This document shows, one piece after another, positions 11,915 to 26,383 of a stretch of DNA of 26,383 bases (position 1 is its first letter; each line of letters starts with the position of its first letter). The stretch is from a virus. Below the pieces are notes generated by a model. The model did no database searches and had not been told where the DNA came from. It saw nothing but the letters and a program-made list of their open reading frames with translations. The position numbers and the translations under genes are program-made. The stretch lies in IMG/VR virus record IMGVR_UViG_3300032224_001105, positions 1 to 26,383 of that record. One strand, given 5' to 3'.

Positions 11915-12647
11915 TATAATTTCTCCACGTATTCATAATCTAGGTGATTTTGCACATTGTTTACCTGCACTTTCTGGTTTATATAAAAAAACTGGAGATA
12001 GAATGGTGTTTGGTATCTGTGACAGACTTCAACGCTTCAAAGGCCTCAAAGAAATATTGAAAGCCCAAGAAATGTTTTATGATGTAATGTTCATGCATGA
12101 AATTAAAAGTATGCCAAATTATATGGTAGTCGATGATTCAGGTAGTGATGGTGATTATCGTTTGAGTGCCGGTGTGGTACACAAATATGGAAACTTTATA
12201 AAGCAGAATTATAAGATTGATTTTCAAATTGATGATGATTTTGAATTGCAAGTTCCGGAAATGGTTGTGGAAGATGTGGGGGATAAAATTTTAGTTGGAG
12301 ACCGATGGTCAACCAAAGATGCACCTGATGTTGATGATAGACGTTTATCCAATTTAATTGAAGGTTCTGGTATACTAGATGGTTTGCCTACGCACTATCT
12401 TGATTATACAAAAGACTTGGTGTATAATTGTAACTTGATTAAATACAACAATAGACCATTAGTTACAACCTTTACTGGTATTGCCATTATGGCTGACTTG
12501 ATGAAGAAAAGAACTGTTGTTGTATATGATGACGATATGATTAATTGGAACAATAAACCAATTATGAACACATTTGATGCACACTTTTATAAAGATAGAA
12601 AAAGCTCAGTTTACTATATTAAGGCACTTGACACAAGTATATTATGA
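11907..12647 (+). CDS. GT9-like (heptosyltransferase-type) protein, first of a pair
   Basis: The 246-residue protein opens with IISPRIHNLGDFAHCLPAL (4-22), matching the GLGDxLxxLPAL motif of GT-B family 9 transferases that act on LPS cores. Near the end, PLVTTFTGIAIMADLMKKRTVVVYD (from about 200) corresponds to the TGxxHLAxxLxxPTVALFG motif, although the usual histidine is missing. It is shorter than bacterial heptosyltransferases (about 320-350). ATG 11907 overlaps the previous stop by 8 bases; an upstream in-frame start at 11859 lies inside the previous gene and lacks a site. Loss of the histidine raises the possibility of a partner role with the next gene. Confidence 0.7.
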   Translation: MLNIISPRIHNLGDFAHCLPALSGLYKKTGDRMVFGICDRLQRFKGLKEILKAQEMFYDVMFMHEIKSMPNYMVVDDSGSDGDYRLSAGVVHKYGNFIKQNYKIDFQIDDDFELQVPEMVVEDVGDKILVGDRWSTKDAPDVDDRRLSNLIEGSGILDGLPTHYLDYTKDLVYNCNLIKYNNRPLVTTFTGIAIMADLMKKRTVVVYDDDMINWNNKPIMNTFDAHFYKDRKSSVYYIKALDTSIL

Positions 12648-13357
12648 TTATTAACATAGAACCCCACAACTTTGGTGGGCCAGTACGTAACGGCGATATA
12701 ATTGCCGTATTGAATTTTTATATGTGGTTATCAGAACAACCACCGCATTATCGTGATATTAAATTTCATATTCCTGATAGGGCAATACAGCAATCAGATT
12801 ACATAATCAGATTTCGTAATTGGTTGAATGATAATGTTTCTTTCCTTTCTGCTGAACCAGGTCAAAGTAATTTGAATATGCAGAATGTCAATCTTTGGGA
12901 TTTAAGGTCACTAACTGGTGATAAACTTATCCTAGACTTCAATAAACCAATCAAAAAGAAAATTGTGATTGCGCCATTATTTGATGGTCCATATAACACA
13001 TATCGTAATTGGTCAGTTCCAATGTTTGAGTCTATCATTCAACATTATTCAAAAGATGAATACAAAGATTATGAAAAAATTATTTGTGCCAAGAATGACG
13101 CACTATCAACCTTTTATGATGGTTGGAAAAATAGTTATGACTTTATTGAAAATATAGAACACATTGTTGATTGTAGTCATTATGTTGGTGGTGATACTGG
13201 AACATCACACTTTGCATCCGTATTACCTAAAAAAGAAAAATTAAATTATTATTATGGGTCTGTAGGACTACTGCATACCACTCCTTTCTATGCATTGCAG
13301 GGAAAAGGAAATATTAATATGTTTCACAATAACAATTGGAGATTGGATTTGTTATGA
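12644..13357 (+). CDS. GT9-like (heptosyltransferase-type) protein, second of a pair
   Basis: The 237-residue protein has a GT-B C-terminal half. KKIVIAPLFDGPYNTYRNW (107-125) corresponds to the strand and PxxxxxxKxW region of GT9 enzymes, and CSHYVGGDTGTSHFAS contains the DTGxxHxA signature that binds the nucleotide-sugar. The N-terminal opening GGPVRNGDIIAVLNFY resembles the GxLGDxL loop. The start overlaps the previous stop (ATGA). This copy retains the signature histidine that the preceding protein lacks. It probably transfers a sugar to a lipid-linked or surface glycan; the donor is unknown. Confidence 0.74.
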   Translation: MIINIEPHNFGGPVRNGDIIAVLNFYMWLSEQPPHYRDIKFHIPDRAIQQSDYIIRFRNWLNDNVSFLSAEPGQSNLNMQNVNLWDLRSLTGDKLILDFNKPIKKKIVIAPLFDGPYNTYRNWSVPMFESIIQHYSKDEYKDYEKIICAKNDALSTFYDGWKNSYDFIENIEHIVDCSHYVGGDTGTSHFASVLPKKEKLNYYYGSVGLLHTTPFYALQGKGNINMFHNNNWRLDLL

Positions 13358-14001
13358 GAATTTATAGAAAAATGTTGGAACACCTTGGTGGTTATTTGTA
13401 TCAGGACAAAATGACAGGACCACTACCTGATTATTCCGCAACATATTCGAAACAAAGATATGACACTTATACCACAAACGATAGAATGTCTGAATTGCGA
13501 TTCAATCTATTGACCAAAGTAATTAAATCATTCAATACACTTACTGACTTTGGTTATGGTAATGGAGCATTTCTACACCATTGTATCAAGAAAGGTAAGA
13601 TAACATATGGTTTTGATATTTCAGATTATCCGACACCTATGGGTTCTTTGAAAATCAATAATGTAAATGATTATGAAGTTGATGTGATGACTTTTTATGA
13701 TTCACTTGAACATCTTCCTGAAATGGATTTGATGCCGTTTCTCCGTGATTTAAAAACAAAATATATTTGTATTTCTGTACCTTGGTATCACGAAGAACAA
13801 GGAAAAGAATGGTTTATGGATTGGAAACACCGTAGAGAAAATGAACATCTGCATCATTTCGATTCACATGGTTTGATTAATCTACTTAACTTTTCTGGAT
13901 ATAAAATACTTTATTTGGGTAATGAAGAAGATGCAGTAAGAACTCCTGTTGATGACCTACCTAATATATTAACTGTTATTGCAAGAAAATTGGAGAAGTG
14001 A
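13354..14001 (+). CDS. SAM-dependent methyltransferase, class I
   Basis: This 215-residue protein has the SAM-binding motif I DFGYGNG (65-71), an acidic residue at the end of the second strand (FDIS, D88), and motif DSLEHLP (116-122), which is typical of Methyltransf_23-type enzymes. HHFDSHGLINLLNFSGY (167-183) is the usual helix before the final strands. Such enzymes in glycan clusters O- or C-methylate sugars; the same fold also caps LPS chains. The ATG overlaps the preceding stop (ATGA); an upstream TTG at 13336 is unlikely. Substrate unknown. Confidence 0.87.
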   Translation: MRIYRKMLEHLGGYLYQDKMTGPLPDYSATYSKQRYDTYTTNDRMSELRFNLLTKVIKSFNTLTDFGYGNGAFLHHCIKKGKITYGFDISDYPTPMGSLKINNVNDYEVDVMTFYDSLEHLPEMDLMPFLRDLKTKYICISVPWYHEEQGKEWFMDWKHRRENEHLHHFDSHGLINLLNFSGYKILYLGNEEDAVRTPVDDLPNILTVIARKLEK

Positions 14002-14002
14002 T

Positions 14003-14680
14003 ATGAATGATATGGCAATCGTAATCGCTGCATACACCTATGGTGCAACACCTGAGGTTGAAGCAGCTAAAAGATACATGACCAAAACATTGGTCAAAAA
14101 TGCAAAGAAATCTGGTTATCATGTGTGTTTAACTACGCACTCAACCATCGATGAAGAAACACAGAAGATGTGTAACACATACATCTATGATGAAAACAAC
14201 AGTTTCAAAGTAAATGGAATTCCAACTATGGATCACATTCATGGTTATGGTGTTGCTCACTTGGTTGCTGTACACAATGCAATCAATGTATTGGAGAGGA
14301 TGGGTATCAAATACATTCTTAAATTATGTTATGATAATATTCCAAATATTGACTACAAAGAATTGATTGAGAAGTGTCGTGCAACAGGCAAGAGAGCTGT
14401 TACTGCAAAGTGGGGTAATGATGTAACACTTGGTGACCATATGTACTTTACAGAAATTGAATTTCTAAAAGAGACATTCAACTTAGGTGAAATCTGGCGT
14501 GCTGATAAATTTGCACATCTCGGTGGAGATATGGAGTATGTTTGGTTTGATTCTGTTGCAGAAAAAGGTAAGCTGAGTGACATTCACTTAGTTGAAAATT
14601 ACCACGACTTTTTAGGTTTTGACATCCTTCAATTCTGTGAAGGTGGTGGCATCCACATCAACAACTATCCATTCGAATGA
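14003..14680 (+). CDS. Probable glycosyltransferase-like protein, family not recognised
   Basis: The 225-residue protein looks like a GT-A fold: a first strand AIVIAAYTYG (4-13), a helix-rich part, then KYILKLCYDNIPNID (around 103-117) where a DxD-type acidic pair would sit, here YDN. Later AHLGGDMEYVWFD and a C-terminal EGGGIHINNYP give a histidine near the end. It lacks a textbook DxD motif, so the activity is inferred mainly from fold impression and neighbours. ATG 14003 has GGAG seven bases upstream (13992-13995). It starts right after the methyltransferase stop and overlaps the next gene by 4 bases. Confidence 0.68.
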   Translation: MNDMAIVIAAYTYGATPEVEAAKRYMTKTLVKNAKKSGYHVCLTTHSTIDEETQKMCNTYIYDENNSFKVNGIPTMDHIHGYGVAHLVAVHNAINVLERMGIKYILKLCYDNIPNIDYKELIEKCRATGKRAVTAKWGNDVTLGDHMYFTEIEFLKETFNLGEIWRADKFAHLGGDMEYVWFDSVAEKGKLSDIHLVENYHDFLGFDILQFCEGGGIHINNYPFE

Positions 14681-15357
14681 AAACAATTAGCGTAACTGTT
14701 ATTGATACTCTTAATTATACACCAAGTATCAAAGCCCTAAGAAAGACACTTGAAACACTAGGTGATAAAATTATCTCTGTTTATTGGTTTAGTGACATTC
14801 CTTTTCCTGAACCAATAGATACAAAAATTTTTTGGACAAAAATACCACGAATTACAAGTTACAATGATGAGTATGGTAATATTACGTTAAAAATTTGTCC
14901 ACTTGTTTGTATTGAAGATTTCAATTTAATTATTCACTCTGATGGTTTTGCGGTCAATAAAGATGCATGGACTGATGAGTTTTTTGAATACGATTACATT
15001 GGTGCAACATGGCAAGATGGTCGTGTTGGTAACGGTGGTTTTTGTTTAAGGTCACGTAAGTTGTATCAAGCATTAAATAAAATGAATGTTAATTTTGCGA
15101 CAGAACAGTTTGGCGATATGATACATAATCCAGACTATCATGTAATTACAAACGGACAGTATCTCATTCCAGAAGATAATGTTATTTGCAAAATATATAG
15201 AAGTGAGTTAGAAACAAAATACGGAATCAAATTTGCACCACCACATATTGCAAATAGATTTAGTGTTGAACACAATTACAACCATGAATGGGTTGGAAGA
15301 AGTTTAGGGTTTCATGGTAAACATGGCATTGCAAAAAATTATGGAGTTGAGTTATGA
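14677..15357 (+). CDS. DUF5672-like glycosyltransferase-type protein
   Basis: The 226-residue protein reads like DUF5672: LIIHSDGFAVNKDAWTDEF (90-108), YDYIGATW (110-117), VGNGGFCLRSRKLY (122-135), then PEDNVICKIYR and a late GFHGKHG. The family occurs in glycan loci and has a GT-A-like plan, with the SDG segment in the place of the metal motif and GNGGFxLR as an acceptor-side loop. It is part of the continuous overlapping run (4-base overlaps on both sides). Activity is inferred from family and context; the sugar is unknown. Confidence 0.83.
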   Translation: MKTISVTVIDTLNYTPSIKALRKTLETLGDKIISVYWFSDIPFPEPIDTKIFWTKIPRITSYNDEYGNITLKICPLVCIEDFNLIIHSDGFAVNKDAWTDEFFEYDYIGATWQDGRVGNGGFCLRSRKLYQALNKMNVNFATEQFGDMIHNPDYHVITNGQYLIPEDNVICKIYRSELETKYGIKFAPPHIANRFSVEHNYNHEWVGRSLGFHGKHGIAKNYGVEL

Positions 15358-16085
15358 ACAGAATTAAGGTATACATTCATGCAATGGACTTGCCTGGTGG
15401 TAAAGAAATTTTAGAAGAGCAGATAGAATTGCTTGAAAGAACAGGCCTTGCTGACGAAGCAGAAGAAATCAATTTGATGTTGCATTTCAATGAAAAAAAC
15501 TTTGAATGGATTGAAGAAAGATGGGAAAATAAAACCAATGCTATTTTTCACTTATTTGATGAAGGTTATAAAGAATGGTATGAAGGAACAACCATTCAAC
15601 ACATTCAGGAATGTGCCCACGCAACAGAAGATGATTACTATGTTCTTTGTATGACCTCTAAAGGAATCTCACACGGACCTGGTGGTCACCAAAACTGGCG
15701 TCACTATATGCAATATTTTAATGTTGATAAATGGAAAGAGTGTGTACAAAAATTAGATGAAGGATATGATACTGTAGGCGCAGCATATTTGCCTGACCCT
15801 CCTTATGGTTTCTATCCAGGTACTTTCTTTTGGGCAAAAGCATCATATATTCGTAAATGCCGTAGACTGTTGCCTCCACCAGAGGCAGATTTCAAACCGC
15901 AATTTGAAGGACAACCACATCATCGATTCGACATGGAATGTTGGATTGGTAGTGGTAAACCTAACTGGTATGAAATGCATCCAGGTCCTAGTGGCCGTTG
16001 GTACTCACCCGCCTCATATTACAGGAATGATATTGTAGAAGAACCAAAACCTGCTGGTCTTTGGTCGTATAGAACGGAGTCATAA
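15354..16085 (+). CDS. Glycosyltransferase-like surface-glycan protein
   Basis: The 243-residue protein has segments shared by a widespread but poorly named glycosyltransferase-like group: HQNWRHYMQYF (112-122), YDTVGAAYL (139-147), and YPGTFFWAKASYIRKC (153-168), which corresponds to the HxSGNFWWAxxxY motif of capsule and LPS proteins. An acidic DDYY (93-96) may stand in for the metal site. The C-terminal third has the phrases FEGQPHHRFDMECWIG and PSGRWYSP. It abuts the dehydratase gene with no spacing. Exact specificity is unknown. Confidence 0.75.
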   Translation: MNRIKVYIHAMDLPGGKEILEEQIELLERTGLADEAEEINLMLHFNEKNFEWIEERWENKTNAIFHLFDEGYKEWYEGTTIQHIQECAHATEDDYYVLCMTSKGISHGPGGHQNWRHYMQYFNVDKWKECVQKLDEGYDTVGAAYLPDPPYGFYPGTFFWAKASYIRKCRRLLPPPEADFKPQFEGQPHHRFDMECWIGSGKPNWYEMHPGPSGRWYSPASYYRNDIVEEPKPAGLWSYRTES

Positions 16086-17039
16086 ATGATACTAGTAACA
16101 GGTGGTGCAGGATTTATTGGAGGTAATTTTCTATATTATCTCTATAATAATAAATTGACCAACAAGGTTGTATGTGTAGACAATCTGACATATGCTTCAA
16201 ATATCGATTACATTCAACCATTAATCGATAAAGGTTTTGTAATTTTTGAAAAGGCAGATATTGCTAGTAAAGAAGATATACAAAGAATCTATACTACATA
16301 TAATCCTACACGTATCATTAATTTTGCAGCTGAAAGTCACGTTGACAATTCTATCAATGATTATGAACCATTCATACATACAAATATTTTAGGCACAATC
16401 AACTTAATGCAAAATGCATTATCATTAAAAGGCCTACAGAGATTCATTCACATTTCAACTGATGAGGTATATGGAAGTTTGAGTTTGTCTGACGAACAAG
16501 GATTCAATGAGACCACACAATACAATCCAAACAATCCATATTCTGCATCTAAGGCATCTAGTGACCATTTTGTGAGAGCATTTCATAAGACTTATGGTCT
16601 GCCTGCAATCATTACAAATTGTTCAAACAATTATGGACCAGGACAAAACACAGAAAAGTTTATACCGACAATTATCACTAAGGCTCTAAACGATGAAAAA
16701 GTTCCAGTTTATGGTGATGGTCTATATGTAAGAGATTGGTTATTCGTATTGGATCATTGTAAAGGTATCTACATGGTATTACAGAATGGTAGAATTGGTG
16801 AGAAATATAACATTGGTGGTGGTACAGAGTTGCCAAATATAGAAATTACACGTACAATACTGGATAAACTAGGCAAACCACACAGTTTGATTGAAATGGT
16901 AAAAGATAGACCAGGACATGATAGACGTTATTCTATTGATTGCACTAAAATCACCGATGAATTAGGATATAAACCTGACTATGATATGAAAACTGGACTT
17001 GAATTGACGATAAAGGAATTTTTAAATGAACACAAATGA
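16086..17039 (+). CDS. Nucleotide-sugar 4,6-dehydratase, RmlB-like
   Basis: The 317-residue protein is an extended SDR with GGAGFIG (6-12) for NAD binding, the dehydratase triad region STDEVYG (124-130; T125, D126, E127) and YSASK (152-156). VDNLTYA (31-37) after the second strand and NYGPGQ further on are classic for dTDP-glucose 4,6-dehydratase. It converts an NDP-glucose into the 4-keto-6-deoxy form, the entry point to deoxysugars. RmlA, RmlC and RmlD are not in this window. Because the next gene is of the RfbH type, which works on CDP-sugars in known pathways, the nucleotide actually used here is uncertain. The next gene overlaps it by 14 bases. Confidence 0.93.
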   Translation: MILVTGGAGFIGGNFLYYLYNNKLTNKVVCVDNLTYASNIDYIQPLIDKGFVIFEKADIASKEDIQRIYTTYNPTRIINFAAESHVDNSINDYEPFIHTNILGTINLMQNALSLKGLQRFIHISTDEVYGSLSLSDEQGFNETTQYNPNNPYSASKASSDHFVRAFHKTYGLPAIITNCSNNYGPGQNTEKFIPTIITKALNDEKVPVYGDGLYVRDWLFVLDHCKGIYMVLQNGRIGEKYNIGGGTELPNIEITRTILDKLGKPHSLIEMVKDRPGHDRRYSIDCTKITDELGYKPDYDMKTGLELTIKEFLNEHK

Positions 17040-18312
17040 TTTGATTAATCAACTGGCTACTACAGTTCAACCAAAATATGTAAAGAATTATGATGAATAT
17101 AAAGAGGGTGATTTCATTCAATACTCTGGTCAACTTTGGGATGAAAATGAAATGCGAGCCGCACTTGATACACTTTTGAATGGAAAGTGGATTACATCAG
17201 GTGAAAAAGTTGCACAGTTTCAAATGAAGTTCAGTAAGAAGTTCAATGTGAAAAATGCACACATGGTTAACTCTGGTAGTTCTGCCAACTTGGTGATGAT
17301 TACTGCATTGAAGCACTACATGAAGTGGAAAGATGGCGATGAAATTATTGTTTCACCTGTTGGATTTCCCACAACTATCGCACCGATTGAACAGAATGGT
17401 TTGAAATCAGTATTCATTGACATTGAATTGGATACTTTGAATTTTGACCTAACCAAGATTGAAGAAAAGATTACACCACGAACCAAAGGTATTTTCGTAT
17501 CACCTGTTCTTGGTAATCCTCCTGACATGGATGTATTGCGTAACATTTGTACCAAACATGGCATTCTACTGATTGGTGATAACTGTGATTCATTAGGTTC
17601 CAACTATGGTGGTAAGATGTTGACTGACTACTACTATTGCTGGTCCACATCGTTCTATCCTGCACATCATATCTCTACAGGAGAAGGTGGAATGGTTTGT
17701 ACTGATGATGATGGTCTGATTGCTATAATGCGTTCTGTATCTTGGTGGGGTCGTGATTGTTATTGTGTCGGCTCTAACAATCTTTTGGAATGTGGCACCT
17801 GTGGTAATCGTTTCGATGAATGGTTGAACAACTATAATGGTATTGTTGACCACAAGTATATTTTTTCTACAATGGGTTATAACTTGAAACCACTAGACCT
17901 GCAAGGCGCTATTGGTATTGAACAGTTAAAGAAATTTGAATTCATCGATGAGAAGCGCCGTGATTACAAAAATAAGGTGCAGAAATTTATTGAAGATAAC
18001 ATTAAAGAAGTAAGAGTTATTAACTCCTTAGACAAAGGTGACCCATCTTGGTTTGGTGTGCCAATCTATTGTGAATCACAACAAGTAAAAGAAAAATTGG
18101 TTGCACACTTTGAAGCTAATAAAGTACAAACACGTAACTATTTTAGTGGTAACATCCTACTGCATCCTGGTTATGAACACTTAGATGACTTTAGAAAGTA
18201 TCCTAACTCTAATCTGGCATTGAGTAATGTATTCTTTGTTGGTTGTTCTCCTCTGTGGAACGAAAAGATTCTGGCTTATATTGAGAAAGTGTGTAAAAAA
18301 TGGAACGATTAA
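17026..18312 (+). CDS. RfbH/E1-type 4-keto-6-deoxyhexose 3-dehydrase
   Basis: The 428-residue protein is a DegT-fold PMP enzyme in which the usual lysine is replaced by histidine: SFYPAHHISTGEGG has H214 at that place, the mark of the C-3 dehydrase E1/RfbH. The iron-sulfur ligands also fit: C187, then C245 exactly 57 residues later, then C247, and C256 (C259 nearby), in a CYCVGSNNLLECGTCG loop; in E1 the spacing is C-x57-C-x-C-x7-C. The enzyme removes the C-3 hydroxyl with a reductase partner, leading to 3,6-dideoxyhexoses such as abequose, paratose or ascarylose. No E3-type reductase is seen, so the host may provide electrons. AAAGGA at 17011-17016 supports the start. Confidence 0.93.
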   Translation: MNTNDLINQLATTVQPKYVKNYDEYKEGDFIQYSGQLWDENEMRAALDTLLNGKWITSGEKVAQFQMKFSKKFNVKNAHMVNSGSSANLVMITALKHYMKWKDGDEIIVSPVGFPTTIAPIEQNGLKSVFIDIELDTLNFDLTKIEEKITPRTKGIFVSPVLGNPPDMDVLRNICTKHGILLIGDNCDSLGSNYGGKMLTDYYYCWSTSFYPAHHISTGEGGMVCTDDDGLIAIMRSVSWWGRDCYCVGSNNLLECGTCGNRFDEWLNNYNGIVDHKYIFSTMGYNLKPLDLQGAIGIEQLKKFEFIDEKRRDYKNKVQKFIEDNIKEVRVINSLDKGDPSWFGVPIYCESQQVKEKLVAHFEANKVQTRNYFSGNILLHPGYEHLDDFRKYPNSNLALSNVFFVGCSPLWNEKILAYIEKVCKKWND

Positions 18313-19154
18313 TCAATGTATTTGGTGGTCGTGGTTTTGTTGGTAAAAAGTACTGCGAACTAACCCCAGATATCTTGTGGGTTAATTCAAGGGATGATTA
18401 TGTTATAAAATCAAACAACACACATCCACTTGATATTGTATATTTCATATCCACAATTGATAATTACAATGTACATACAAACCCATACATAGACATAGAT
18501 ACCAATCTGACAACCATGATAAAGGTTTTGGAGTCTTGTAAAGGTAAGAATGTCTGTTTCAATTTTATCAGTTCTTGGTTCGTTTATGGTGATGTAGAGT
18601 TGCCTGCGAAAGAAGAAGCACATTGCAGTCCTAAAGGATTCTATTCAATCACCAAACGTACCGCAGAACAACTTCTAATTTCCTATTGTGAGACTTTTGG
18701 TATCAGATATAGGATTCTGCGTTTGGGTAATGTCTTGGGTGCTTCTGACAGTAAGGTTTCCAAAAAGAAAAACGCACTCCAGTACATGATTAATGAGATT
18801 GTAGAAGGTCGTGATGTTAGTTTGTATGATGGTGGTATGATTTATCGAGACTATATTCATGTCGAGGATGTCGTAAAAGCTATTAATCTGGTACTCGCAA
18901 ATGGCGAATTTGATACCACATACAATATTGCAAACGGCGTTCCCGTTTACATTAGAGATGTTATGGAATATACAATTAAGAAAACTGGTTCTCAGTCTAA
19001 GTTAATTGATATTCCGACCGTAGATTTTCATAAGATTGTACAGACAAAAAATATGGTTCTGGATGTATCTAAATTGAGGTCTTTGGGTTACGTAGAACAA
19101 TACGATATTTACGAAATTATAGACTCTTTACTTGTCGGTAAAAAAGTTATATAA
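18300..19154 (+). CDS. NAD-dependent epimerase/reductase (extended SDR), last gene of the island
   Basis: This 284-residue SDR has GGRGFVG (9-15), SSWFVYG (91-97) and Y115/K119 (YSITK), followed by YRDYIHVEDV. It follows the RfbH-type dehydrase with a 13-base overlap, the position where a CDP-3,6-dideoxyhexose 4-reductase or 2-epimerase (abequose, paratose or tyvelose type) would be expected. Length fits such reductases. An alternative is a general nucleotide-sugar epimerase. The stop codon lies inside a late promoter, so the end of the island and the start of the late module are joined at this point. Confidence 0.87.
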   Translation: MERLINVFGGRGFVGKKYCELTPDILWVNSRDDYVIKSNNTHPLDIVYFISTIDNYNVHTNPYIDIDTNLTTMIKVLESCKGKNVCFNFISSWFVYGDVELPAKEEAHCSPKGFYSITKRTAEQLLISYCETFGIRYRILRLGNVLGASDSKVSKKKNALQYMINEIVEGRDVSLYDGGMIYRDYIHVEDVVKAINLVLANGEFDTTYNIANGVPVYIRDVMEYTIKKTGSQSKLIDIPTVDFHKIVQTKNMVLDVSKLRSLGYVEQYDIYEIIDSLLVGKKVI

Positions 19155-19157
19155 ATA
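19150..19157 (+). promoter_or_regulatory. Late promoter TATAAATA at start of late module
   Basis: A perfect T4-type late promoter element, TATAAATA, overlaps the stop codon of the SDR gene. In T4 this element covers roughly -13 to -6, which would put the RNA start near 19163, about 42 bases before the next ATG. The following genes look like virion or head-internal proteins, as expected for late transcription. Confidence 0.8.
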
Positions 19158-19195
19158 ACTCCAGGCAACCAAAGTGTGTTGCATTTCTATGGAGT
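19158..19195 (+). promoter_or_regulatory. Leader hairpin that can cover the ribosome binding site
   Basis: Two nested stems can form: ACTCC (19158-19162) with GGAGT (19191-19195), and GCAAC (19165-19169) with GTTGC (19178-19182). The outer stem pairs the Shine-Dalgarno GGAG that lies 10 bases before ATG 19205. Its 5' arm is just upstream of the predicted late RNA start, so it exists only in RNA read through from the glycan island. T4 genes e, soc and the I-TevI gene use this arrangement to block early translation. Confidence 0.6.
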
Positions 19196-19204
19196 AAACT
19201 TTCA

Positions 19205-20395
19205 ATGTTATCATTTAAAACCTTCTTAAAGGAAGAGGCCGAGGGTGGCGAACTCAAGCATATTCACCATGCTGAGGACCGCCCTCTAATGCATGGCCAT
19301 GCTGGATTTGAACACGCCCACGAAGCTCTGATGAAGGCTCATGCACACATGACTTCAGGTGCGAAAAGTAGTAATCTTACGATGAAATATGATGGTTCTC
19401 CATCAATCGTTTTCGGTCATCACCCTAAAAATGGTAAGTTTTTCGTTGCTACCAAATCTGCCTTTAATAAGAATCCAAAGATTAATCACACCGAAAAAGA
19501 TATTGACAAGAACCACGGACACGCTCCTGGTTTAGCCGCATCTCTGAAACACGCACTCAAACACCTACCAAAAGTAACACCAAAACACGGTGTCTACCAA
19601 GGTGATTTGATGCATCATGCAGACACTAAACACCTACACGAAGGCGTTCTCGTAGAAGCCAAAGGTAGTAAAGTCTCTTTTACACCAAATACTATCACTT
19701 ATACCGCCCACGGCAAAGAAGCTGATAAGATTAAAAAATCTAAGATTGGTGTGGTAGTACATCACAAATATAGTGATGATATGAAACACGCTTCTCCTCA
19801 TGTTGACCATGAAAACTTTAAAGAACATCCAGATGTTCATATTCATGGTGCGGAACATGATACAAGCAAAGTGAAACATTCACCCGAGAACGAAAAGAAG
19901 TTTCAATCTCATATGGCAGCTGCCAAAGAAATCCATGACACACATGGTCACAAAATGTATGATGCGGTTCACCCAAAACATAGTGGTGAAACTGGCCACC
20001 TGTCAACCTACATAAACAAGACAGTTAGACACGATGAAGTTCCTTCCGTTAAGGGTTTCAAAGAACATCTAAAAGATGTACACGAAAAACAAGCATCAAA
20101 AGTTAAAACTGAAAGGGCGAAAGCTGAGAAGACCGGCGAAGGCGCAAAACAAATTGCCCACGTTGAAAAGAATAAATCACATTATGGAAACTTATTTGGA
20201 ATGCATCATCATTTACACCAAGCTAAAAATGCTTTAGTTAGTTCCTTAGAAACACATGAGGGACACTACCAACATCATATTGAAGGTAAGAAATCAAAAC
20301 CAGAAGGTTTTGTTGTACACCACGCAAACGAACCAACTAAATTAGTCAATCGTGCAGAATTTGCTAAACAAAATCTGTTAAAAGTACGTAAATGA
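19205..20395 (+). CDS. His-rich nucleotidyltransferase/ligase-fold protein with capsid-targeting-like N-terminus
   Basis: The 396-residue protein contains elements of the ATP-dependent ligase / capping-enzyme fold: KYDGSP (61-66), with K61 as the likely AMP-linked lysine (motif I KxDG), GVYQGDLMH (129-137), and near the C-terminus PEGFVVHH (366-373) and KLVNR (379-383), fitting motifs IV and V. It is very histidine-rich (about 54 by hand count). The N-terminus MLSFKTFLKEE resembles the T4 internal-protein targeting peptide with an L-x-E cleavage site at LKE. It is the first gene after the late promoter and overlaps the next gene by 4 bases. It may seal or cap nucleic acid, possibly from inside the virion; substrate unknown. 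I recall related proteins labelled DUF6267, which I could not verify. Confidence 0.82.
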   Translation: MLSFKTFLKEEAEGGELKHIHHAEDRPLMHGHAGFEHAHEALMKAHAHMTSGAKSSNLTMKYDGSPSIVFGHHPKNGKFFVATKSAFNKNPKINHTEKDIDKNHGHAPGLAASLKHALKHLPKVTPKHGVYQGDLMHHADTKHLHEGVLVEAKGSKVSFTPNTITYTAHGKEADKIKKSKIGVVVHHKYSDDMKHASPHVDHENFKEHPDVHIHGAEHDTSKVKHSPENEKKFQSHMAAAKEIHDTHGHKMYDAVHPKHSGETGHLSTYINKTVRHDEVPSVKGFKEHLKDVHEKQASKVKTERAKAEKTGEGAKQIAHVEKNKSHYGNLFGMHHHLHQAKNALVSSLETHEGHYQHHIEGKKSKPEGFVVHHANEPTKLVNRAEFAKQNLLKVRK

Positions 20396-22284
20396 AGTCA
20401 TTTTTAGATTTAGTAAAAGAACAGACCTCAAGTGAGAAACACCATGTTTTCACTTTTGGTAGGATGAATCCGCCTACCACAGGCCATCTGAAGCTGATTG
20501 ATAAGGTAAAAGAAGTTGCAAAAAAACATAATGCAACTCATTCTGTTGTAACATCACATTCTCAGGATGCGAAAAAGAATCCATTGTCAGCCTCAGAGAA
20601 AATAAAACATCTTAGTAGATATTCTCCTGGTACGCATTTTGAAGCTTCATCTAAAGAACATCCAACATTTCTACACCATGCGGAAAAATTACACAAACAA
20701 GGTGTAACACACTTACACATGGTGGTTGGTTCTGACCGTGTGCATGAAATGAAAGATAAATTGCACAAGTATAATGGTACACATAAAGGTGCATTATACA
20801 ATTTCAAAAAGATTACAGTACATTCCGCAGGTCACCGTGACCCTGATGCGGAGGGTACATCTGGTATGTCTGGTACCAAAATGCGTGAACACGCTAAGAA
20901 TAAGAATCATGCTGAGTTCCGTAAAGGTGTTCCTGCTCACGTATCTGATGCCCACGTAAAAGAATTAATGCACGATACTCGTAAGGGTATGGGACTGCAT
21001 GAGTCTGTAGACCGTGGATTATTTAAAGCCATATTCATTACTGGTGGTCCAGGTTCTGGTAAAGATGTTATCATACGTGAAGCAATTCCAGATGCTAGAA
21101 CTACAGAAATTAATTTAACACAAGCATATGCCTATCTGGCAGATAAACAAAAGTTGTCGGAGAAAACAGATAACTATCGTTTGGAAGCCATTCGCAATCG
21201 TGGTCCATTGGTTATTAATGGACCGGCAGATTCTTCTGATGAGATTTCTTATGTAAAAGAAGAACTAGAAGAACTTGGTTATTCTACTGTTATGATATTT
21301 GTTAATACAACAAACGAAGTCAGTCAGGAAAGAAATACAAAATTGTCCAGAATGATGGTTGAATCAATCCGTTTTGATAAATGGAAAAAATCACAGGACA
21401 ACAAACAATACTACTTGGATATGTTTGAGTCTCTAATTGAATTCAATAACAATTCAACATATGAGTGTTTAGAAGAAGATATTACTGACACCTATCAAAA
21501 AATAAATACCTTTATCGATGATGTAACCTTCAAAGAAAATGCACATTCTTGGTTGGAAAGTCATGGTAAGTTAAGTTTGTTAATTAATAAATTCTTTAAG
21601 GATGAAAATTATGTTCCAGAAACTTCTAAGTATATTCAAAAAATCAGAGAAAAGCGAGAGCCAAAACTCCACAAAGGTGGATCAGGTCGAGCAGAATCTC
21701 CCTCCGACATCCCAGCCGATAATCGTGCAGGAGACCCCAACTCAGGAAACATCAAGTGGGACGCCCCTAAACGTAGAGGTGACTACATCTTCAGAACCTA
21801 CAGCGAGTCCGAGCAACCAAAAGTCCAAACCAGGCCAGACCCGAAAGAAAGCAACTTCTCCAAGGACAAAGAAAAAGTAAAGCTTAAGAAGTTTGGTGAT
21901 AAGACATTAAGTGCTAACCGAACAGTTAAAGCGGATGGATTAAGCTCAGAGTGGAGTCTCCGTACAACAGGTACAGGTTTGACAGGTGGTGCAGGTCTAG
22001 GTAATCAGACATATAGTGAAGAAGAAGAATATAGTAATGCGAACCCAGCAACTACAGCAATGCCTTCTGGTGGTTCTTCTAATCCTTTAAGTAGTGAATA
22101 TACTAGTAAAAAGGATTTCCGAAAGTTTAGAAAAGTTAAAGAATCTTGGATGGATCCAGGTGACAATGAAATGGGTGTAGGTGGAACACTTGGTGGTTCT
22201 ACAAAGAAAGAACCCATGCTCTCATATAAAGATCCTGGTCGAAAAGTCATCACGTATTTTAAAAAGAAAAAGGCAAATAAATGA
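20392..22284 (+). CDS. Nucleotidylyltransferase-kinase fusion with long disordered tail
   Basis: The 630-residue protein has three parts. Residues 18-170 form a HxGH-type nucleotidylyltransferase: FGRMNPPTTGHLKL (TTGH 29-32) and GMSGTKMREHA (158-168), the second signature, as in NMN adenylyltransferase or cytidylyltransferases. Residues 213-400 form a P-loop kinase-like domain beginning FITGGPGSGKD (215-225). Residues 405-630 are low-complexity, with charged and glycine/serine-rich stretches. The N-terminus MKSFLDLVKEQ resembles the capsid-targeting peptides of this module. A pairing of these two activities suggests NAD or nucleotide metabolism, as in NadR-like proteins, but the substrate is not certain. 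Codon use turns C-ending at 21661-21860, where another frame is open. Confidence 0.85.
   Translation: MKSFLDLVKEQTSSEKHHVFTFGRMNPPTTGHLKLIDKVKEVAKKHNATHSVVTSHSQDAKKNPLSASEKIKHLSRYSPGTHFEASSKEHPTFLHHAEKLHKQGVTHLHMVVGSDRVHEMKDKLHKYNGTHKGALYNFKKITVHSAGHRDPDAEGTSGMSGTKMREHAKNKNHAEFRKGVPAHVSDAHVKELMHDTRKGMGLHESVDRGLFKAIFITGGPGSGKDVIIREAIPDARTTEINLTQAYAYLADKQKLSEKTDNYRLEAIRNRGPLVINGPADSSDEISYVKEELEELGYSTVMIFVNTTNEVSQERNTKLSRMMVESIRFDKWKKSQDNKQYYLDMFESLIEFNNNSTYECLEEDITDTYQKINTFIDDVTFKENAHSWLESHGKLSLLINKFFKDENYVPETSKYIQKIREKREPKLHKGGSGRAESPSDIPADNRAGDPNSGNIKWDAPKRRGDYIFRTYSESEQPKVQTRPDPKESNFSKDKEKVKLKKFGDKTLSANRTVKADGLSSEWSLRTTGTGLTGGAGLGNQTYSEEEEYSNANPATTAMPSGGSSNPLSSEYTSKKDFRKFRKVKESWMDPGDNEMGVGGTLGGSTKKEPMLSYKDPGRKVITYFKKKKANK
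21501..21508 (+). promoter_or_regulatory. Possible internal late promoter AATAAATA
   Basis: AATAAATA lies inside the fusion gene, about 100 bases before the ATG of the nested frame at 21611. It matches a relaxed NATAAATA late element. It could serve the nested frame or the genes downstream, or be chance in AT-rich code. Confidence 0.25.
21611..21880 (+). CDS. Possible overprinted small gene nested in the fusion gene (+1 frame)
   Basis: An 89-residue frame lies wholly within the fusion gene, shifted by one base. It has a well spaced ribosome site, AAGGA at 21598-21602, eight bases before its ATG. The product begins MFQKLLSIFKK, an amphipathic start of the kind that docks on membranes, continues as a Ser/Thr/Pro-rich linker and ends in a basic tail (TSPRTKKK). 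The host frame here uses mostly C-ending codons, unlike all neighbouring genes; that puts C at the middle codon position of the nested frame, giving its S, T and P. This can mean selection on the nested frame, or merely that C-ending codons create such a frame. An in-frame ATG at 21602 is too close to the site. Confidence 0.35.
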   Translation: MFQKLLSIFKKSEKSESQNSTKVDQVEQNLPPTSQPIIVQETPTQETSSGTPLNVEVTTSSEPTASPSNQKSKPGQTRKKATSPRTKKK

Positions 22285-22496
22285 TATCTTTCAAAGACTT
22301 TATTACCGAAAAGGTAGATAAACAAGATTCTATAACAATGGACATTCCTCTTTTAATACGTGTATTAGAATTGGCCAGAGAGGATGTTAAGAGTGATATG
22401 GAATTACATCGTATTACCGAAAGATTAATTAGTATTCGTAAAAAAGGTATGCTGACAATGGATCATTATAATTTCATTGCTGGTTCAAGAAAATAA
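22281..22496 (+). CDS. Small conserved phage protein with capsid-targeting-like N-terminus
   Basis: This 71-residue protein starts MISFKDFITEK, close to the T4 internal-protein peptide (MKTYQEFIxEA type), with an I-x-E cleavage site at ITE. The rest is a helical segment DIPLLIRVLELAREDVKSD followed by LHRITERLISIRKKG and LTMDHYNFI, which I recall as a conserved small phage domain. It overlaps the fusion gene by 4 bases. If the peptide is cut, about 60 residues remain, which would be a small internal head protein. Function unknown. Confidence 0.82.
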   Translation: MISFKDFITEKVDKQDSITMDIPLLIRVLELAREDVKSDMELHRITERLISIRKKGMLTMDHYNFIAGSRK

Positions 22497-22512
22497 GAAT
22501 TAGGAGACACAA

Positions 22513-23454
22513 ATGTTCGCAAAAGATAAAGTATCACAATCATTAGTTGACGCAGTTAATAAAGTTCTCGGTGAAGATAAAGTTGAGCCGAAGCAAACTG
22601 AAACTACACCACAACAGTTAGATGAAGCAAGCAATGTTAAAATTGCAACATCTACTGGCACTAAAGTGTTGGGTCACAGATATGGTAACTCAGCAAAAAC
22701 CCACCGTGATTTAATGGCAGATCCATTTGCTGGTGCAAAAGGACCAAAATCTGGAGAGTTAGAAAAGATTGAGAAAGAAAAGAAAAAAGAACGCTCAATG
22801 GATGAAGAACTCAAAGGTGGACAAACCAAAATTGACAAAAATCATAACAACAAAATTGATGCACAAGATTTCAAAATTCTACGTGGCCAAAAAAAGTCTT
22901 TGACCAAGATGAAAGAACAACTTGATGAACCAGTATTAGATGAATTGATTAATGAAGTTCTTTCCAAAGATGCTTCTGCTTATGATTACATTCACGATTT
23001 TGTTCATTCAGACAATCCTAAATTTGCAGGTAAATCTAAGGCTAAACGTAAAGAAATGGCTTTGGCAGCGTACTATGCAAAACAACGTAACGAAGAAGTT
23101 GACCTTGAAGAAGGTATGATGGATGCAGTAAAATCTGGTGTGAAAAAAGTTCTGAGTAAAGTTGGTGGTGGGTCTGATGAGGACCAACGTAAAGATTTAC
23201 AACGTAAAATGGGTGTTCCACAAACTGGTAAAAAACCAGTACAAAAAGAAGAAGCTGAACAACCTAAACAACGTAAAAGAACTACAGATACATTGGCTGG
23301 CCGTGTAGGAGGTGGGTTAGATAACCAACATAGCAGTTATAAAGTTGGATTGAAGGCAGAAGAAAGTAAGCCACTCTCTTTAGCTAAAGAAGTTGCTAAA
23401 AAAGCATACAAAAAAATTAAAACAGAAACTATGATGGGTAAAATCTCCAATTAA
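22513..23454 (+). CDS. Lysine-rich probable head-internal or core protein with EF-hand-like loop
   Basis: The 313-residue protein is rich in K, E and Q and looks mostly disordered or helical. It has a 12-residue EF-hand/dockerin-like loop at 108-119: D108, N110, N112, I115, D116, D119 (DKNHNNKIDAQD). A second block, ASAYDYIHDFVHSDNPKFAG (154-173) followed by KRKEMALAAYYAKQR, is a recurring module I recall in T4-like marine phages. Several L/I-x-E sites (LGE, LDE, INE, LEE) could be cut by a gp21-type head protease. AGGAG at 22503-22507 precedes the ATG. A scaffold/core or packaged role is inferred from composition and module context; no enzyme motif is seen. Confidence 0.8.
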   Translation: MFAKDKVSQSLVDAVNKVLGEDKVEPKQTETTPQQLDEASNVKIATSTGTKVLGHRYGNSAKTHRDLMADPFAGAKGPKSGELEKIEKEKKKERSMDEELKGGQTKIDKNHNNKIDAQDFKILRGQKKSLTKMKEQLDEPVLDELINEVLSKDASAYDYIHDFVHSDNPKFAGKSKAKRKEMALAAYYAKQRNEEVDLEEGMMDAVKSGVKKVLSKVGGGSDEDQRKDLQRKMGVPQTGKKPVQKEEAEQPKQRKRTTDTLAGRVGGGLDNQHSSYKVGLKAEESKPLSLAKEVAKKAYKKIKTETMMGKISN

Positions 23455-23462
23455 GGTTTACA

Positions 23463-24542
23463 ATGAAAAAATTCAAAGATATTAGAATTAAAGTAAACCC
23501 TGCACCTAAGGCAACTTTTGGCACCAACCCAAAGGATCCTTGGTCTGCGAAATATAATATTGCAGAAGGTTTACTGGATCAATATTTGGCATCTAAAGGT
23601 TTTGACCCCCGTGTAATAACACCAAATCAAAAGGTGTCTTATGCAAAATCATCTGCTTTTATTAAATGGAAGCAAGACCGCATGGCACATCATGTACAAG
23701 GTGAATCATACAATGGTCCAAGAGGTGATAAATTGATTGCTCGTTCTCATGCAGCATACAGAGCTGGCGACAAAGAAACTTCTAGTCGTGCTCATAAATT
23801 GGCAATGAAAGCTGGAGAAAAATACAGAAGTGATCCTGTTAATAGAGAAAAAGCAATTGCTCATATAATGTCTGGTGCAAAAGCTGATTACAATAAACCA
23901 GGAAGAAATTGGACAGGAGATTCTGTTGAATATCCTGAAGATACAAATGTCATTTCTGAGATTAGTGATGCAACTTTGAATAGTTATAAAGAGAAAGCCA
24001 AGAAATCGGCTGATGATTTATCATCTAAAGGTCAACATAAGAAGTCCACAGACCGCTGGATGGGTGTTATGAAGGCAACAGGTAAACAAATTGAAAAGAC
24101 TACTGCTAGTATCAAAAAGCATCTGAATAAAGAAGATACATGGCAAGATAGTTATGCTGCAACACAAACTGTTGGTCAAGAAATCAAAAGTGATGACCCA
24201 CCAACATTCAGCAAAAATAAGAAATTAAAAGTCACAAAAGAAGATGTGATGAAATCGGCACGTATCATTAAATCAATCTATAAAAATAAAAAAGTGGCTG
24301 AAGAAACTTATGATTGGGAAAAAGATGATAAGTCGGTTAAGACATATGGGAAAAAACCTACTATGTCAGTACAAGCGAAAGAGAAAAGCTTTGGAGAGAA
24401 TAAGCCAGATGCTGCAGCAATTATGTCTGGAGGAAAAACCCTTACAGGTGATAAACGTGACACAATTGAAATCGATCCAATGATGAAAGTTCGTCCTGGT
24501 TCAGTAGTCTTTACGCCTGCAAGCAAAAAGAGCCCACAATAA
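23463..24542 (+). CDS. Basic modular phage protein, probable virion component
   Basis: The 359-residue protein is lysine-rich. Recognisable pieces are an N-terminal part with KYNIAEGLLDQYLASKG, a central helical part (RSHAAYRAGDKETSSRAHKL and KAIAHIMSGAKADY), then ISEISDATLNSYKEKAKKSA (about 163-182), with a nearby KHLNKED, which resembles a repeat-type module I recall in marine T4-like phage proteins. The last third is disordered and ends in VRPGSVVFTPA. The N-terminus MKKFKDIRIKV is only weakly like the targeting peptides of its neighbours. AAGG at 23454-23457 is its site. The stop lies within a late promoter element. Virion role is inferred from position only. Confidence 0.78.
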   Translation: MKKFKDIRIKVNPAPKATFGTNPKDPWSAKYNIAEGLLDQYLASKGFDPRVITPNQKVSYAKSSAFIKWKQDRMAHHVQGESYNGPRGDKLIARSHAAYRAGDKETSSRAHKLAMKAGEKYRSDPVNREKAIAHIMSGAKADYNKPGRNWTGDSVEYPEDTNVISEISDATLNSYKEKAKKSADDLSSKGQHKKSTDRWMGVMKATGKQIEKTTASIKKHLNKEDTWQDSYAATQTVGQEIKSDDPPTFSKNKKLKVTKEDVMKSARIIKSIYKNKKVAEETYDWEKDDKSVKTYGKKPTMSVQAKEKSFGENKPDAAAIMSGGKTLTGDKRDTIEIDPMMKVRPGSVVFTPASKKSPQ

Positions 24543-24545
24543 ATA
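24538..24545 (+). promoter_or_regulatory. Second late-type element AATAAATA overlapping a stop codon
   Basis: AATAAATA overlaps the stop codon of the preceding gene and lies 6 bases before the perfect TATAAATA at 24551. The pair may act as tandem late promoters for the virion protein gene, or this copy may be a weaker bystander. Confidence 0.4.
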
Positions 24546-24550
24546 GAAAA

Positions 24551-24558
24551 TATAAATA
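24551..24558 (+). promoter_or_regulatory. Late promoter TATAAATA before the virion protein gene
   Basis: A perfect T4-type late element 36 bases before ATG 24595. By T4 spacing the RNA would begin near 24564, exactly at the start of a stem-loop. It serves a single-gene unit that ends in a strong terminator. Confidence 0.82.
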
Positions 24559-24564
24559 GAACCA

Positions 24565-24577
24565 TAACCAAAGGTTA
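24565..24577 (+). promoter_or_regulatory. 5'-terminal stem-loop of the late mRNA
   Basis: TAACC (24565-24569), loop AAA, GGTTA (24573-24577) forms a five-pair hairpin starting one base after the predicted RNA start. Hairpins at the very 5' end are known to protect bacterial mRNAs from decay. The ribosome site AGGAG (24581-24585) stays free just downstream. Confidence 0.55.
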
Positions 24578-24594
24578 ACAAGGAGATTAAAAAA

Positions 24595-25245
24595 ATGTCA
24601 CTATGGTCAAATAACGATAATGCCAATAGTAAACCACACTTTCCGGAACTACGTCAGGTATCTCCAGTAAGTTCGTTGACTACAGCAAATTCCACAGCGG
24701 CTGGAGCAAACTCTATCATTTTCGCACAAATCGGCGGTGCAAATTCAATTCCATCAACAATTTCTGTTGGTGATTTTGTTTACACTTCAGGTGGAAGCTT
24801 ATCTAGATTTCCTGACGGAAGTTTTATGGATGACAATGATATTACTTTCTTCAGGTCTAATAATACAATTCGTACTATCGATAGTGCTAATGCCAAAATT
24901 ACATTAGCAAACGTAGTTATTACTACAATTGCAAGTAGTTCTACAGTATGGTTTGCAAACAACATAGTTAAGTCTGGTGTTCCAGCAAATACTTACTCAG
25001 ATACTATTATGGTAACTGTTGGACGTATGGCAAACACACAAGGCACAACATACGGTGGTGGTTCAAACGTTTCAAACACACAACTTGGTGCTGTTAACCA
25101 AGGTTGGAATTTGATTAAGTTTAAGACAAACAACGATGGTACAAAACGTTTCCTCAAAGAAACACTTGTTGTTATTGCTAATACCGTTGCATACAACGTT
25201 TCATCTGCCAATACAAGCTCTAACGCTGTATTTGGTGGTGTATAA
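24595..25245 (+). CDS. Probable abundant virion structural protein
   Basis: The 216-residue protein is beta-rich, with many N, T, S and G residues, few lysines and no cysteine, as in phage tail or capsid-decoration proteins. It starts MSLWSNNDNANSKPHFPEL; I recall similar LWxNxD...SKP openings in virion proteins of marine T4-like phages. A later GWNLIKFKTNNDGTKRFLKE followed by TLVVIAN looks like a conserved C-terminal strand pair of that group. It has the best expression signals in the window: a perfect late promoter, a 5' hairpin, AGGAG 9 bases before the ATG and a terminator right after the stop. This points to high late expression. Its place in the particle is unknown. Confidence 0.82.
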   Translation: MSLWSNNDNANSKPHFPELRQVSPVSSLTTANSTAAGANSIIFAQIGGANSIPSTISVGDFVYTSGGSLSRFPDGSFMDDNDITFFRSNNTIRTIDSANAKITLANVVITTIASSSTVWFANNIVKSGVPANTYSDTIMVTVGRMANTQGTTYGGGSNVSNTQLGAVNQGWNLIKFKTNNDGTKRFLKETLVVIANTVAYNVSSANTSSNAVFGGV

Positions 25246-25252
25246 TTAAAGT

Positions 25253-25278
25253 GGGGTACCTAACGGTACCCCTTTTAT
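25253..25278 (+). terminator. Rho-independent terminator
   Basis: A perfect eight-pair stem, GGGGTACC (25253-25260) and GGTACCCC (25265-25272), with loop TAAC, is followed by TTTTAT. It lies 8 bases after the virion protein stop and is the clearest terminator in the window. The next ATG follows only 9 bases after the stem. Confidence 0.9.
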
Positions 25279-25281
25279 ACT

Positions 25282-25668
25282 ATGTTTGAAAATTTGAATG
25301 ACGATAATTTTTTGATGTTCGCAATGAAATGCTACGCATCACCTAATTGTTTAATGTCCGAATTTGACGGAGATATGAAGCGTACCAAGTATCTAAAGAG
25401 ATTATTCCGCAGATACAAGGTCACTAAGAACCTCAAAGAAAGACTGATTCTCAACCATATCATTTTATTGAACAATGTTTTTGGTCCAGAAGTAACATCG
25501 AGAATTTTGTTCTATAAAATCGATGAACGTGATTATGATATATTGAAAACATTTTTGATGTACTTGAATATAATGCCGGATGTGGTAGTTGGTATAAATG
25601 GTAAGAATATATACTCATCAGATATACCATTAGAAACAAATATTGCAGAAATATTAACAAAGATATGA
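25282..25668 (+). CDS. Conserved T4-like phage protein of unknown function
   Basis: The 128-residue protein is helical, with MFENLNDDNFLMFAMKCY at the start, then FDGDMKRTKYLKRLFRRY and LKERLILNHIILLNNVFG, and a C-terminal DILKTFLMYLNIMP. I recall this family in many myoviruses, including enterobacterial ones, without a known role. No convincing Shine-Dalgarno sequence precedes the ATG, since the terminator stem ends only 9 bases before it; the start is still favoured because the N-terminal phrase is conserved in the proteins I recall. The stop overlaps the next start (ATGA). Confidence 0.84.
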   Translation: MFENLNDDNFLMFAMKCYASPNCLMSEFDGDMKRTKYLKRLFRRYKVTKNLKERLILNHIILLNNVFGPEVTSRILFYKIDERDYDILKTFLMYLNIMPDVVVGINGKNIYSSDIPLETNIAEILTKI

Positions 25669-26255
25669 AGTCATTCAAACAATACCTAAATGAAAATTGC
25701 TGTTGTGTAACGGCATTGGAAAAAGGTTTAAAAAAATTAAATAAGCACGACTACGATTCAATTAATGAATTGATGATGGATATTTCCAAAAAAGGTAATA
25801 CTACTGGCAAAGCTTTGCATGACGATTTTGTGGCCAAACATGGAAAAACTCCAGATGAGTGGATTAAACAAAATTTAAAAGAAGATTTACGCAAGTGGTT
25901 TAAGCAAAAATGGGTTCGCATGGACACCAAAGGAAATATTAAAGGCCATTGCGCCAGAGATCCAGGTGAAGGCAAACCAAAATGTTTACCACAATCTAGG
26001 GCACAAGCTCTAGGTAAAGAAGGTCGTGCTGCAGCAGCTCGAAGAAAACGCAGAGAAGATCCTAATCCAGAACGCCGTGGTGCACCAATTAACGTTAGAA
26101 CGGAAAGTGCGGCCGCAGCAATCGCTGCAGCTACAGCAATAGCAAAGAAAAAATCTGGTAATTATGATTCTGAAGGATTTAGAAAAACTCCATACAAAAA
26201 TCCAAATCACCCTTTGAGAAAAAGTAATTCGCAGAGAGAGAAAGAACAAAAATGA
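25665..26255 (+). CDS. Basic small-domain protein with capsid-targeting-like N-terminus
   Basis: This 196-residue protein begins MKSFKQYLNENCCC, another T4 internal-protein-like peptide, with an L-x-E site (LNE) before an unusual run of three cysteines (12-14). A compact domain follows at about 76-145: KWVRMDTKGNIKGHC, then GKPKCLPQSRAQAL and KRREDPNPERRGAPINV, with C96 and C107. I recall this KWVR...GKPKCLP domain in many phage proteins. An alanine-rich helix (148-160) and a basic tail end the protein. It overlaps the upstream stop by 4 bases and the next start by 4 bases. It may be a DNA-associated internal head protein; that is inference. Confidence 0.8.
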   Translation: MKSFKQYLNENCCCVTALEKGLKKLNKHDYDSINELMMDISKKGNTTGKALHDDFVAKHGKTPDEWIKQNLKEDLRKWFKQKWVRMDTKGNIKGHCARDPGEGKPKCLPQSRAQALGKEGRAAAARRKRREDPNPERRGAPINVRTESAAAAIAAATAIAKKKSGNYDSEGFRKTPYKNPNHPLRKSNSQREKEQK

Positions 26256-26383
26256 AAACATTTAAACAATTTACAGAAGAAGCTGAAAATTTAGAAGAAA
26301 AGAATGTTCCTACTAGTCCAGAAAAATGGGCTAGAGCAAAAGCTGCTGCTAAATCTAAATTCGCTGTTTATCCTTCCGCTTAT
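26252..26383 (+). CDS. Capsid-targeting-like small protein, 5' part only
   Basis: Only the first 44 residues are present; the window ends inside the gene. The start MKTFKQFTEEAENLEE is the closest match in this window to the T4 internal-protein peptide MKTYQEF-x-x-EA. It continues with SPEKWARAKAAAKSKFAVYPSAY, a segment I recall in many phage proteins (KSKFxVYPSAYAN). It overlaps the preceding stop (ATGA). By analogy it would be targeted to the prohead and trimmed by the head protease. The rest of the protein is not visible. Confidence 0.8.
   Translation, partial: MKTFKQFTEEAENLEEKNVPTSPEKWARAKAAAKSKFAVYPSAY

Follow-up and report, generated by a model that had tools for sequence, protein, structure and literature searches.

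Why should a row of late phage genes, which code for different kinds of proteins, start with nearly the same short peptide? This question is raised by the virus record IMGVR_UViG_3300032224_001105 of IMG/VR, which we have analysed over its entire 26,383 bases (hereafter the window). By proteins and gene order, it belongs to a T4-like myovirus, with S-SZBM1, pelagiphage HTVC008M, Syn10, and syn9 as the nearest named records. The genes for DNA polymerase, UvsX, and helicase are followed by a sugar/glycosyltransferase cluster and then, from position 19205, by a block in which five open reading frames (ORFs) share an N-terminal peptide of about 10 residues, called the tag in the following. In our reading, the tag is very probably a capsid-targeting sequence of the T4 internal-protein (IP) type, that is, a swappable label for cargo. 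The injected proteins of a phage are usually not known, and laborious proteomics is needed to find them. If the tag is indeed a T4-type targeting sequence, the injected sets of thousands of uncultured aquatic phages could be listed by sequence alone, the 'contaminant' enzymes in cyanophage virions would be explained, and the NMNAT/kinase enzymes would be indicated as first-minute effectors.

The shared peptide and its conservation

The five N-terminal 11-mers are MLSFKTFLKEE (19205), MKSFLDLVKEQ (20392), MISFKDFITEK (22281), MKSFKQYLNEN (25665), and MKTFKQFTEEA (26252), and each starts at an ATG on the plus strand. The earlier note on this DNA had described them as near-identical; all five are present and its coordinates are right, though the wording is generous, since only F4, F/L/Y7, and E10 are common to them (M-x-[ST]-F-x-x-[FLY]-x-x-E). 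Its count of three exact L/I-x-E sites holds. The tags at 19205..19234, 22281..22310, and 25665..25694 contain LKE, ITE, and LNE, respectively, with the cut in the first predicted after LKE, and those at 20392..20421 (aliphatic at position 7) and 26252..26281 read VKE and TEE. That is, E10 is found in 5/5 and L/I8 in 3/5 of the tags, and the targeting positions 4 and 7 are aromatic or hydrophobic in 5/5.

The roles of these positions are known from T4, in which the N-terminal 10 residues of IPIII are enough to direct a protein to the head. Residues 4 and 7 are important for targeting and residues 8 and 10 for processing, with gp21 cleaving behind L/I-x-E; in T4, the peptide has also been shown to bring a foreign protein into heads, and the cargo to be injected (PMC9026906). 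In the T4 record, ipII and ipIII begin with MKTYQEFIAEA, and ipI reads MKTFKEFT...ITEA. The proposed likeness to the T4 peptide is borne out in that the conserved positions match the T4 functional residues 4, 7, 8, and 10. A first strict pattern, with S/T at position 3, gave no match in HTVC008M or Melnitz. Since it missed MQGFKTFLSEA and MKNFKNHIAEE, both carried by Melnitz, we recast the rule on the T4 functional positions. The resulting strict rule, taken from T4 genetics, uses the targeting and processing residues (aromatic/Leu at 4, aromatic at 7, hydrophobic at 8, and E at 10) and matches 3/9 genes of the block and 0/23 other window genes. A relaxed rule, which was fitted after the fact, matches 5/9 and 0/23 (hypergeometric 6e-4 for a post hoc rule). 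Three upstream genes were scored here from starts in the wrong frame, but their actual N-termini give no match to the rules. In addition, a profile built only from T4 internal proteins and cyanophage virion enzymes, with the window sequences excluded from its training set, ranks 22281, 19205, and 25665 as 1, 2, and 3 of the 32 window genes.

Among 23 distinct relatives of the 19205 protein, L8 and E10 are fixed as is F4, and position 7 is F or Y (F4 and F/Y7 in 23/23), while positions 2, 3, 5, 6, and 9 are variable. Leu8 is encoded by all six Leu codons in the relatives, and Phe and Glu by both of theirs. As positions 4, 7, 8, and 10 are kept, the others vary, and Leu8 uses six codons, selection acts at the peptide level. 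For the 20392 protein, F4 is present in 27/27 relatives and E10 in 24/27. Several relatives have counterparts of the 25665 tag (MKTFKQYLDE, MKTFKQFMNEA, MKSFKSFINE) and of the 26252 tag (MKSFKKFTEE, MKTFIEFINEA, MKSFKEFREE). The 22281 tag is not common to the relatives, in which the homologous domain lies within longer untagged proteins, so the tag seems to have been attached to that domain. AlphaFold models the 19205 protein with low confidence at residues 6–17, as expected for a removable leader.

The genes of the block had been called late, and this is upheld by a T4-type late promoter, TATAAATA, of which the plus strand of the window has two copies. One copy, at 19150..19157, lies 55 nucleotides (nt) before the block at 19205, and a second late-promoter-like copy, at 24551..24558, lies 44 nt before 24595. 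In 46/53 relatives, TATAAATA is found 48–56 nt upstream of the 19205 orthologue (background, 0.0076 per 100 nt), which supports, at the sequence level, late expression of the tagged block. Between the promoter and the 19205 start, the plus strand holds a leader hairpin, GGCAACCAAAGTGTGTTGC (19164..19182), with compensatory changes in relatives, 99.3% of cells paired, and a covariation score reached by 0/500 shuffles. A similar sequence, TAACCAAAGGTTA, sits after the second late promoter near 24565.

With a conserved leader hairpin at the first tagged gene and a repeated sequence at start codons, one may ask if the constraint is on late mRNA starts (translation initiation or repressor binding), with no function in the protein. 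However, conservation lies at residues 4, 7, 8, and 10 and not at the start codon or the Shine-Dalgarno sequence, the codons for Leu8, Phe, and Glu vary as described above, and adjacent late genes lack the sequence. We thus consider an mRNA-level origin very unlikely.

Distribution of the tag in related phages

Genome-wide tests were run on two near-complete relatives of 176 and 172 kb, the window itself being a 26-kb record. The strict rule matches 3 and 1 of their ATG-initiated ORFs, respectively, every one of them in the late block. With the relaxed rule, each genome gains two more, namely the cytidylyltransferase and a short ORF outside the block. The check for the peptide on early, non-virion proteins, which had been proposed together with the claim, has thus not refuted it.

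We further searched IMG/VR with a DNA pattern encoding MK-x-F-x-x-F-[LIM]-x-E-A, using a pattern of scrambled order as the control. At least 120 loci carry the tag pattern, compared with 1 for the control. An in-frame stop lies no more than 30 codons upstream in 122 of the 123 matches listed, which marks these as true N-termini, and a T4-like core gene stands beside the tag, within short flanking stretches only, in at least 95 of the 120 loci listed. A motif with only four fixed positions could in principle arise by chance, or reflect a weak amphipathic N-terminus of a kind that AT-rich phage genes often encode. The result of the scrambled control, the confinement of the strict matches in the 176-kb relative to the block, and a background of 2/911 matching 11-mers at internal Met residues (S-CREM2) all speak against this, and we regard it as extremely unlikely.

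Among the matches listed, the sequences downstream of the tag form 36 clusters that are unrelated to one another. The tagged families listed are, among others, cytidylyltransferases, DUF6267, P-loop kinases (hits to Zeta toxin or polynucleotide kinase), DUF5661, and DUF6321, and further a GNAT acetyltransferase, a DPBB protein, and a 5'-3' deoxyribonucleotidase. Such diversity bears on recent gene duplication, in which five paralogues would have diverged downstream of the N-terminus and a peptide common to adjacent genes would be their remnant. The mature parts are unrelated families in the window as they are among the IMG/VR clusters, and one family, DUF6267, exists both tagged (window lineage and Melnitz) and untagged (S-SZBM1, S-CRM01, and S-SM1), so that duplication is hardly credible. 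Overall, gene duplication, mRNA-level constraint, and chance have each been tested and set aside. Because unrelated proteins carry the tag and some homologues lack it, we call the label swappable.

Further tagged proteins deserve separate mention. Small tagged proteins at L032:3736-4152, L093:1085-1594, and L049:1208-1858 of the IMG/VR loci contain YHGTxxxxAxxIxxxGF-like sequences that recall ADP-ribosyltransferases; Pfam gave no match in the two of this kind that were tested. In Melnitz (MZ577097, 82-1131), a RimK-like ATP-grasp protein starting with MTQKFSQFITEEPKE is likely tagged and lies outside the late block.

Tagged enzymes in cyanophage virions

Cytidylyltransferase/NMNAT proteins have been reported in the virions of S-SM1 (PMC3037559), S-CREM2 (PMC10665884), S-SCSM1 (PMC9602691), and S-SZBM1 (PMC9146016). 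We have found that 4/4 of these virion-detected enzymes are tagged, namely S-SM1_190 (MKKFSAFLNEA), S-SCSM1_91 (MKSFLQFLKEA), S-SZBM1_140 (MRFRQFIIEA), and S-CREM2 gp154 (MKNFSSFLTEA), so virion proteomics, proposed before as a check, agrees with the claim. In S-CREM2, a SAM hydrolase (MKDFDSFLEEF), a kinase (VKRFDAFLTEE), gp13 (MKDLHSFLTEQ), and gp136 (MQTFSMFFSED) are also tagged and found in virions. Here the tag occurs on 5/52 virion proteins versus 1/167 others (p = 0.003), and, by class, on 5/28 non-structural and 0/24 structural virion proteins. The virion-detected gp12 of the same phage, annotated as Cas9, has RFASFMAEA at residues 18–26, behind a short N-terminal extension; since neither Pfam nor NCBIfam finds a Cas9 domain in it (L012:7704-10313), the label is not relied on. 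The untagged DUF6267 homologue of S-SZBM1 is not on the virion list of that phage.

Packaging of tagged proteins is thus well supported in the relatives. The suggestion that the phage packs a set of enzymes in its head gains its support from the tagged virion enzymes of these four cyanophages, and by extension packaging probably takes place in the window's phage as well.

A second N-terminal module of ~38 residues, LGLxxDGHGxWxDPxTGxxVARTxxGxLxF, is observed behind the tag in cyanophage cytidylyltransferases, kinases, and Cas9-annotated proteins. Its carriers are S-CREM2 gp12 and gp14, S-SCSM1_91, S-SM1_190, S-CRM01_128c and a kinase, S-H34, S-B68, and many IMG/VR carriers (e.g., L098); it is absent from the window. 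This module may act as an additional element for head packaging or DNA binding.

Probable cargo and other genes of the block

Two carriers had been taken for enzymes, and the evidence for them is of different strength. The product of 20392..22284 (plus strand, as for all features of the block) consists of a cytidylyltransferase/NMNAT-like domain (residues ~15–205), a P-loop kinase-like domain (~210–390), and a disordered tail. Its HxGH-type nucleotidyltransferase motif FGRMNPPTTGH is nearly invariant in 26 relatives, and it scores 28.2 bits for Pfam CTP_transf_like (cut-off 21). Although the overall model is only fair (predicted local distance difference test, pLDDT, 63), its Foldseek matches are NadD enzymes and adenylate or polynucleotide kinases, with E from 7e-5 (NadD) to 1e-3. 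From sequence and model, we firmly assign it as an enzyme with NMNAT-like and kinase-fold domains.

For the 396-amino-acid (aa) DUF6267/phrog_455 protein at 19205..20395 (Pfam 2.3e-95, PHROG), the claim is only suggestive. The residues of its motifs K61-x-D-G, E367-G-x-V, and K379 are invariant in relatives, and by these it may be a ligase-like nucleotidyltransferase. Its model is good (pLDDT 85.5), and no significant fold match was obtained with it, ligases appearing only among the weak hits. We have dropped DUF6267 as a proven RNA ligase, since, despite the fitting motifs, neither profile nor fold comparison with the PDB gave a significant match.

The remaining tagged genes code for a 71-aa protein with the domain VDKxDxxTxDIPLLIRVLEL (22281..22496), a basic 196-aa phrog_727 protein (25665..26255), and a further tagged ORF of which only the start is present, cut by the contig end (26252..26383). 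Under the capsid-targeting explanation, which as a whole we hold with good confidence, the cargo of the window would comprise the NMNAT-like plus kinase-fold enzyme, the DUF6267 protein, and small basic proteins. These proteins would likely serve to repair NAD or nucleic acids and to counter host defences on entry, and this is the least certain step of the explanation. Host defences destroy NAD, and restoring it could be one role for NMNAT/kinase effectors.

Four genes of the block are untagged. They code for a 313-aa protein (22513..23454), a 359-aa protein that starts with MKKFKDIRIKV and so has F4 without E10 (23463..24542), a 216-aa protein (24595..25245), and a DUF7207 (phrog_407) protein (25282..25668, Pfam 1.6e-35). 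The 24595 protein is a probable counterpart of the cyanophage 'virion structural / S-layer' proteins such as S-SZBM1_136, because its N-terminus (MSLW/MALW) and position agree with theirs. Upstream of the block, a long cluster of ~15 glycosyltransferase, sugar-nucleotide, and methyltransferase-like ORFs occupies 7517-19154. It separates the replication genes from the late block and is absent at the equivalent place in HTVC008M, Melnitz, and S-SZBM1.

Proposed packaging, processing, and delivery

The machinery that such a tag would need is present in the relatives. Homologues of gp20, gp21, gp22, and gp23 are encoded in the two near-complete relatives (G001 and G002), and a gp21-type prohead protease and a gp22-type core also in HTVC008M, Melnitz, S-CREM2, and S-SZBM1; the window ends short of these genes. 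The capsid proteins of S-SZBM1, Melnitz, and S-CREM2 have a candidate LTE or LSE followed by Ala at the matching place, which suggests the same protease preference. On the T4 model, the tagged proteins would be made late in infection from the promoter at 19150, and the aromatic residues 4 and 7 would dock them on the gp22-type scaffold core of the prohead. A gp21-type protease would then cut after E10, leaving the mature proteins free inside the head. By analogy with T4, the cargo may exit along with the DNA and be active in the new host as soon as infection begins.

Several points weigh against this explanation. Position 8 is V or T in 2/5 of the tags, where T4 processing prefers L or I. HTVC008M has hardly any clean tag, which implies that use of the label varies. 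Some virion proteins encoded in the homologous block are untagged (S-SZBM1_136 and _139; S-SCSM1_89, 90, 92, and 93), so the tag is not the sole way in. Finally, the authors of PMC10665884 and PMC9602691 warn that such enzymes may co-purify as contaminants, although the tag on the virion enzymes argues against this.

The carriers might also be assembly factors or scaffold ballast, with a peptide that binds the scaffold and aids head assembly, and not delivered cargo. T4 IPIII does affect head morphogenesis (PMC9026906), small basic proteins are among the carriers, and the carriers are encoded in a late block. Nevertheless, wherever a carrier has a recognised domain, it is an enzyme for which no part in assembly is obvious (NMNAT/kinase, SAM lyase, protein kinase, GNAT, nucleotidase), and the cargo varies between phages whose head machinery is common. 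An assembly role as the whole explanation therefore appears unlikely to us, and the tag as a label for cargo is preferred.

The targeting sequence itself is known from T4, and it has been suggested that T4-like phages load varied proteins by it (PMC9026906). In our literature search, which covered few subscription journals, we found no account of the tag in cyanophages, pelagiphages, or other marine phages, nor was it given as the reason for enzymes in such virions; its breadth in aquatic T4-like phages is apparently undescribed. It seems rather likely that these phages share a general, swappable 10-residue head-loading code, used on dozens of unrelated effector families (NMNATs, PNK-like kinases, SAM lyases, protein kinases, acetyltransferases, and possible ADP-ribosyltransferase-like and ligase-like proteins), by which the injected proteome can be read from sequence.

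Comparison with known systems

MuF-fused, polyvalent, and giant-phage ejection proteins likewise load effectors in heads, but they do so with large domains or long propeptides, mostly of more than 100 residues, instead of a 10-residue tag. The protease motif of giant phages is S/A-x-E (PMC9026906). T4 Alt, a head-packaged ADP-ribosyltransferase, is similar as a packaged enzyme that gp21 cleaves; it differs in its own 6-residue N-terminus ending in ITE and in its C-terminal processing, and the window proteins are not ADP-ribosyltransferases.

The cyanophage virion NMNAT/cytidylyltransferases and kinases (S-CREM2, S-SCSM1, S-SZBM1, S-SM1, and S-CRM01) are of the same enzyme families as in the window, are found in virions, and are tagged; the reports on these virions mention no targeting peptide and leave the contaminant question open.

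T4 IPI, IPII, and IPIII (Mullaney and Black, PMC9026906) are alike in the N-terminal peptide of ~10 residues with aromatic 4 and 7, E10, and, for three of the five window tags, L/I8, in their late genes, and in otherwise unrelated carriers, and the relatives of the window share the gp21-type protease and gp22-type core. Here, however, position 11 of the window tags is often not Ala, two tags are weak at position 8, and cleavage is predicted. The hosts of tag-carrying phages are cyanobacteria, methylotrophs, SAR11, and unknowns, and where the T4 cargo consists of small restriction inhibitors, the cargo here includes recognisable enzymes.

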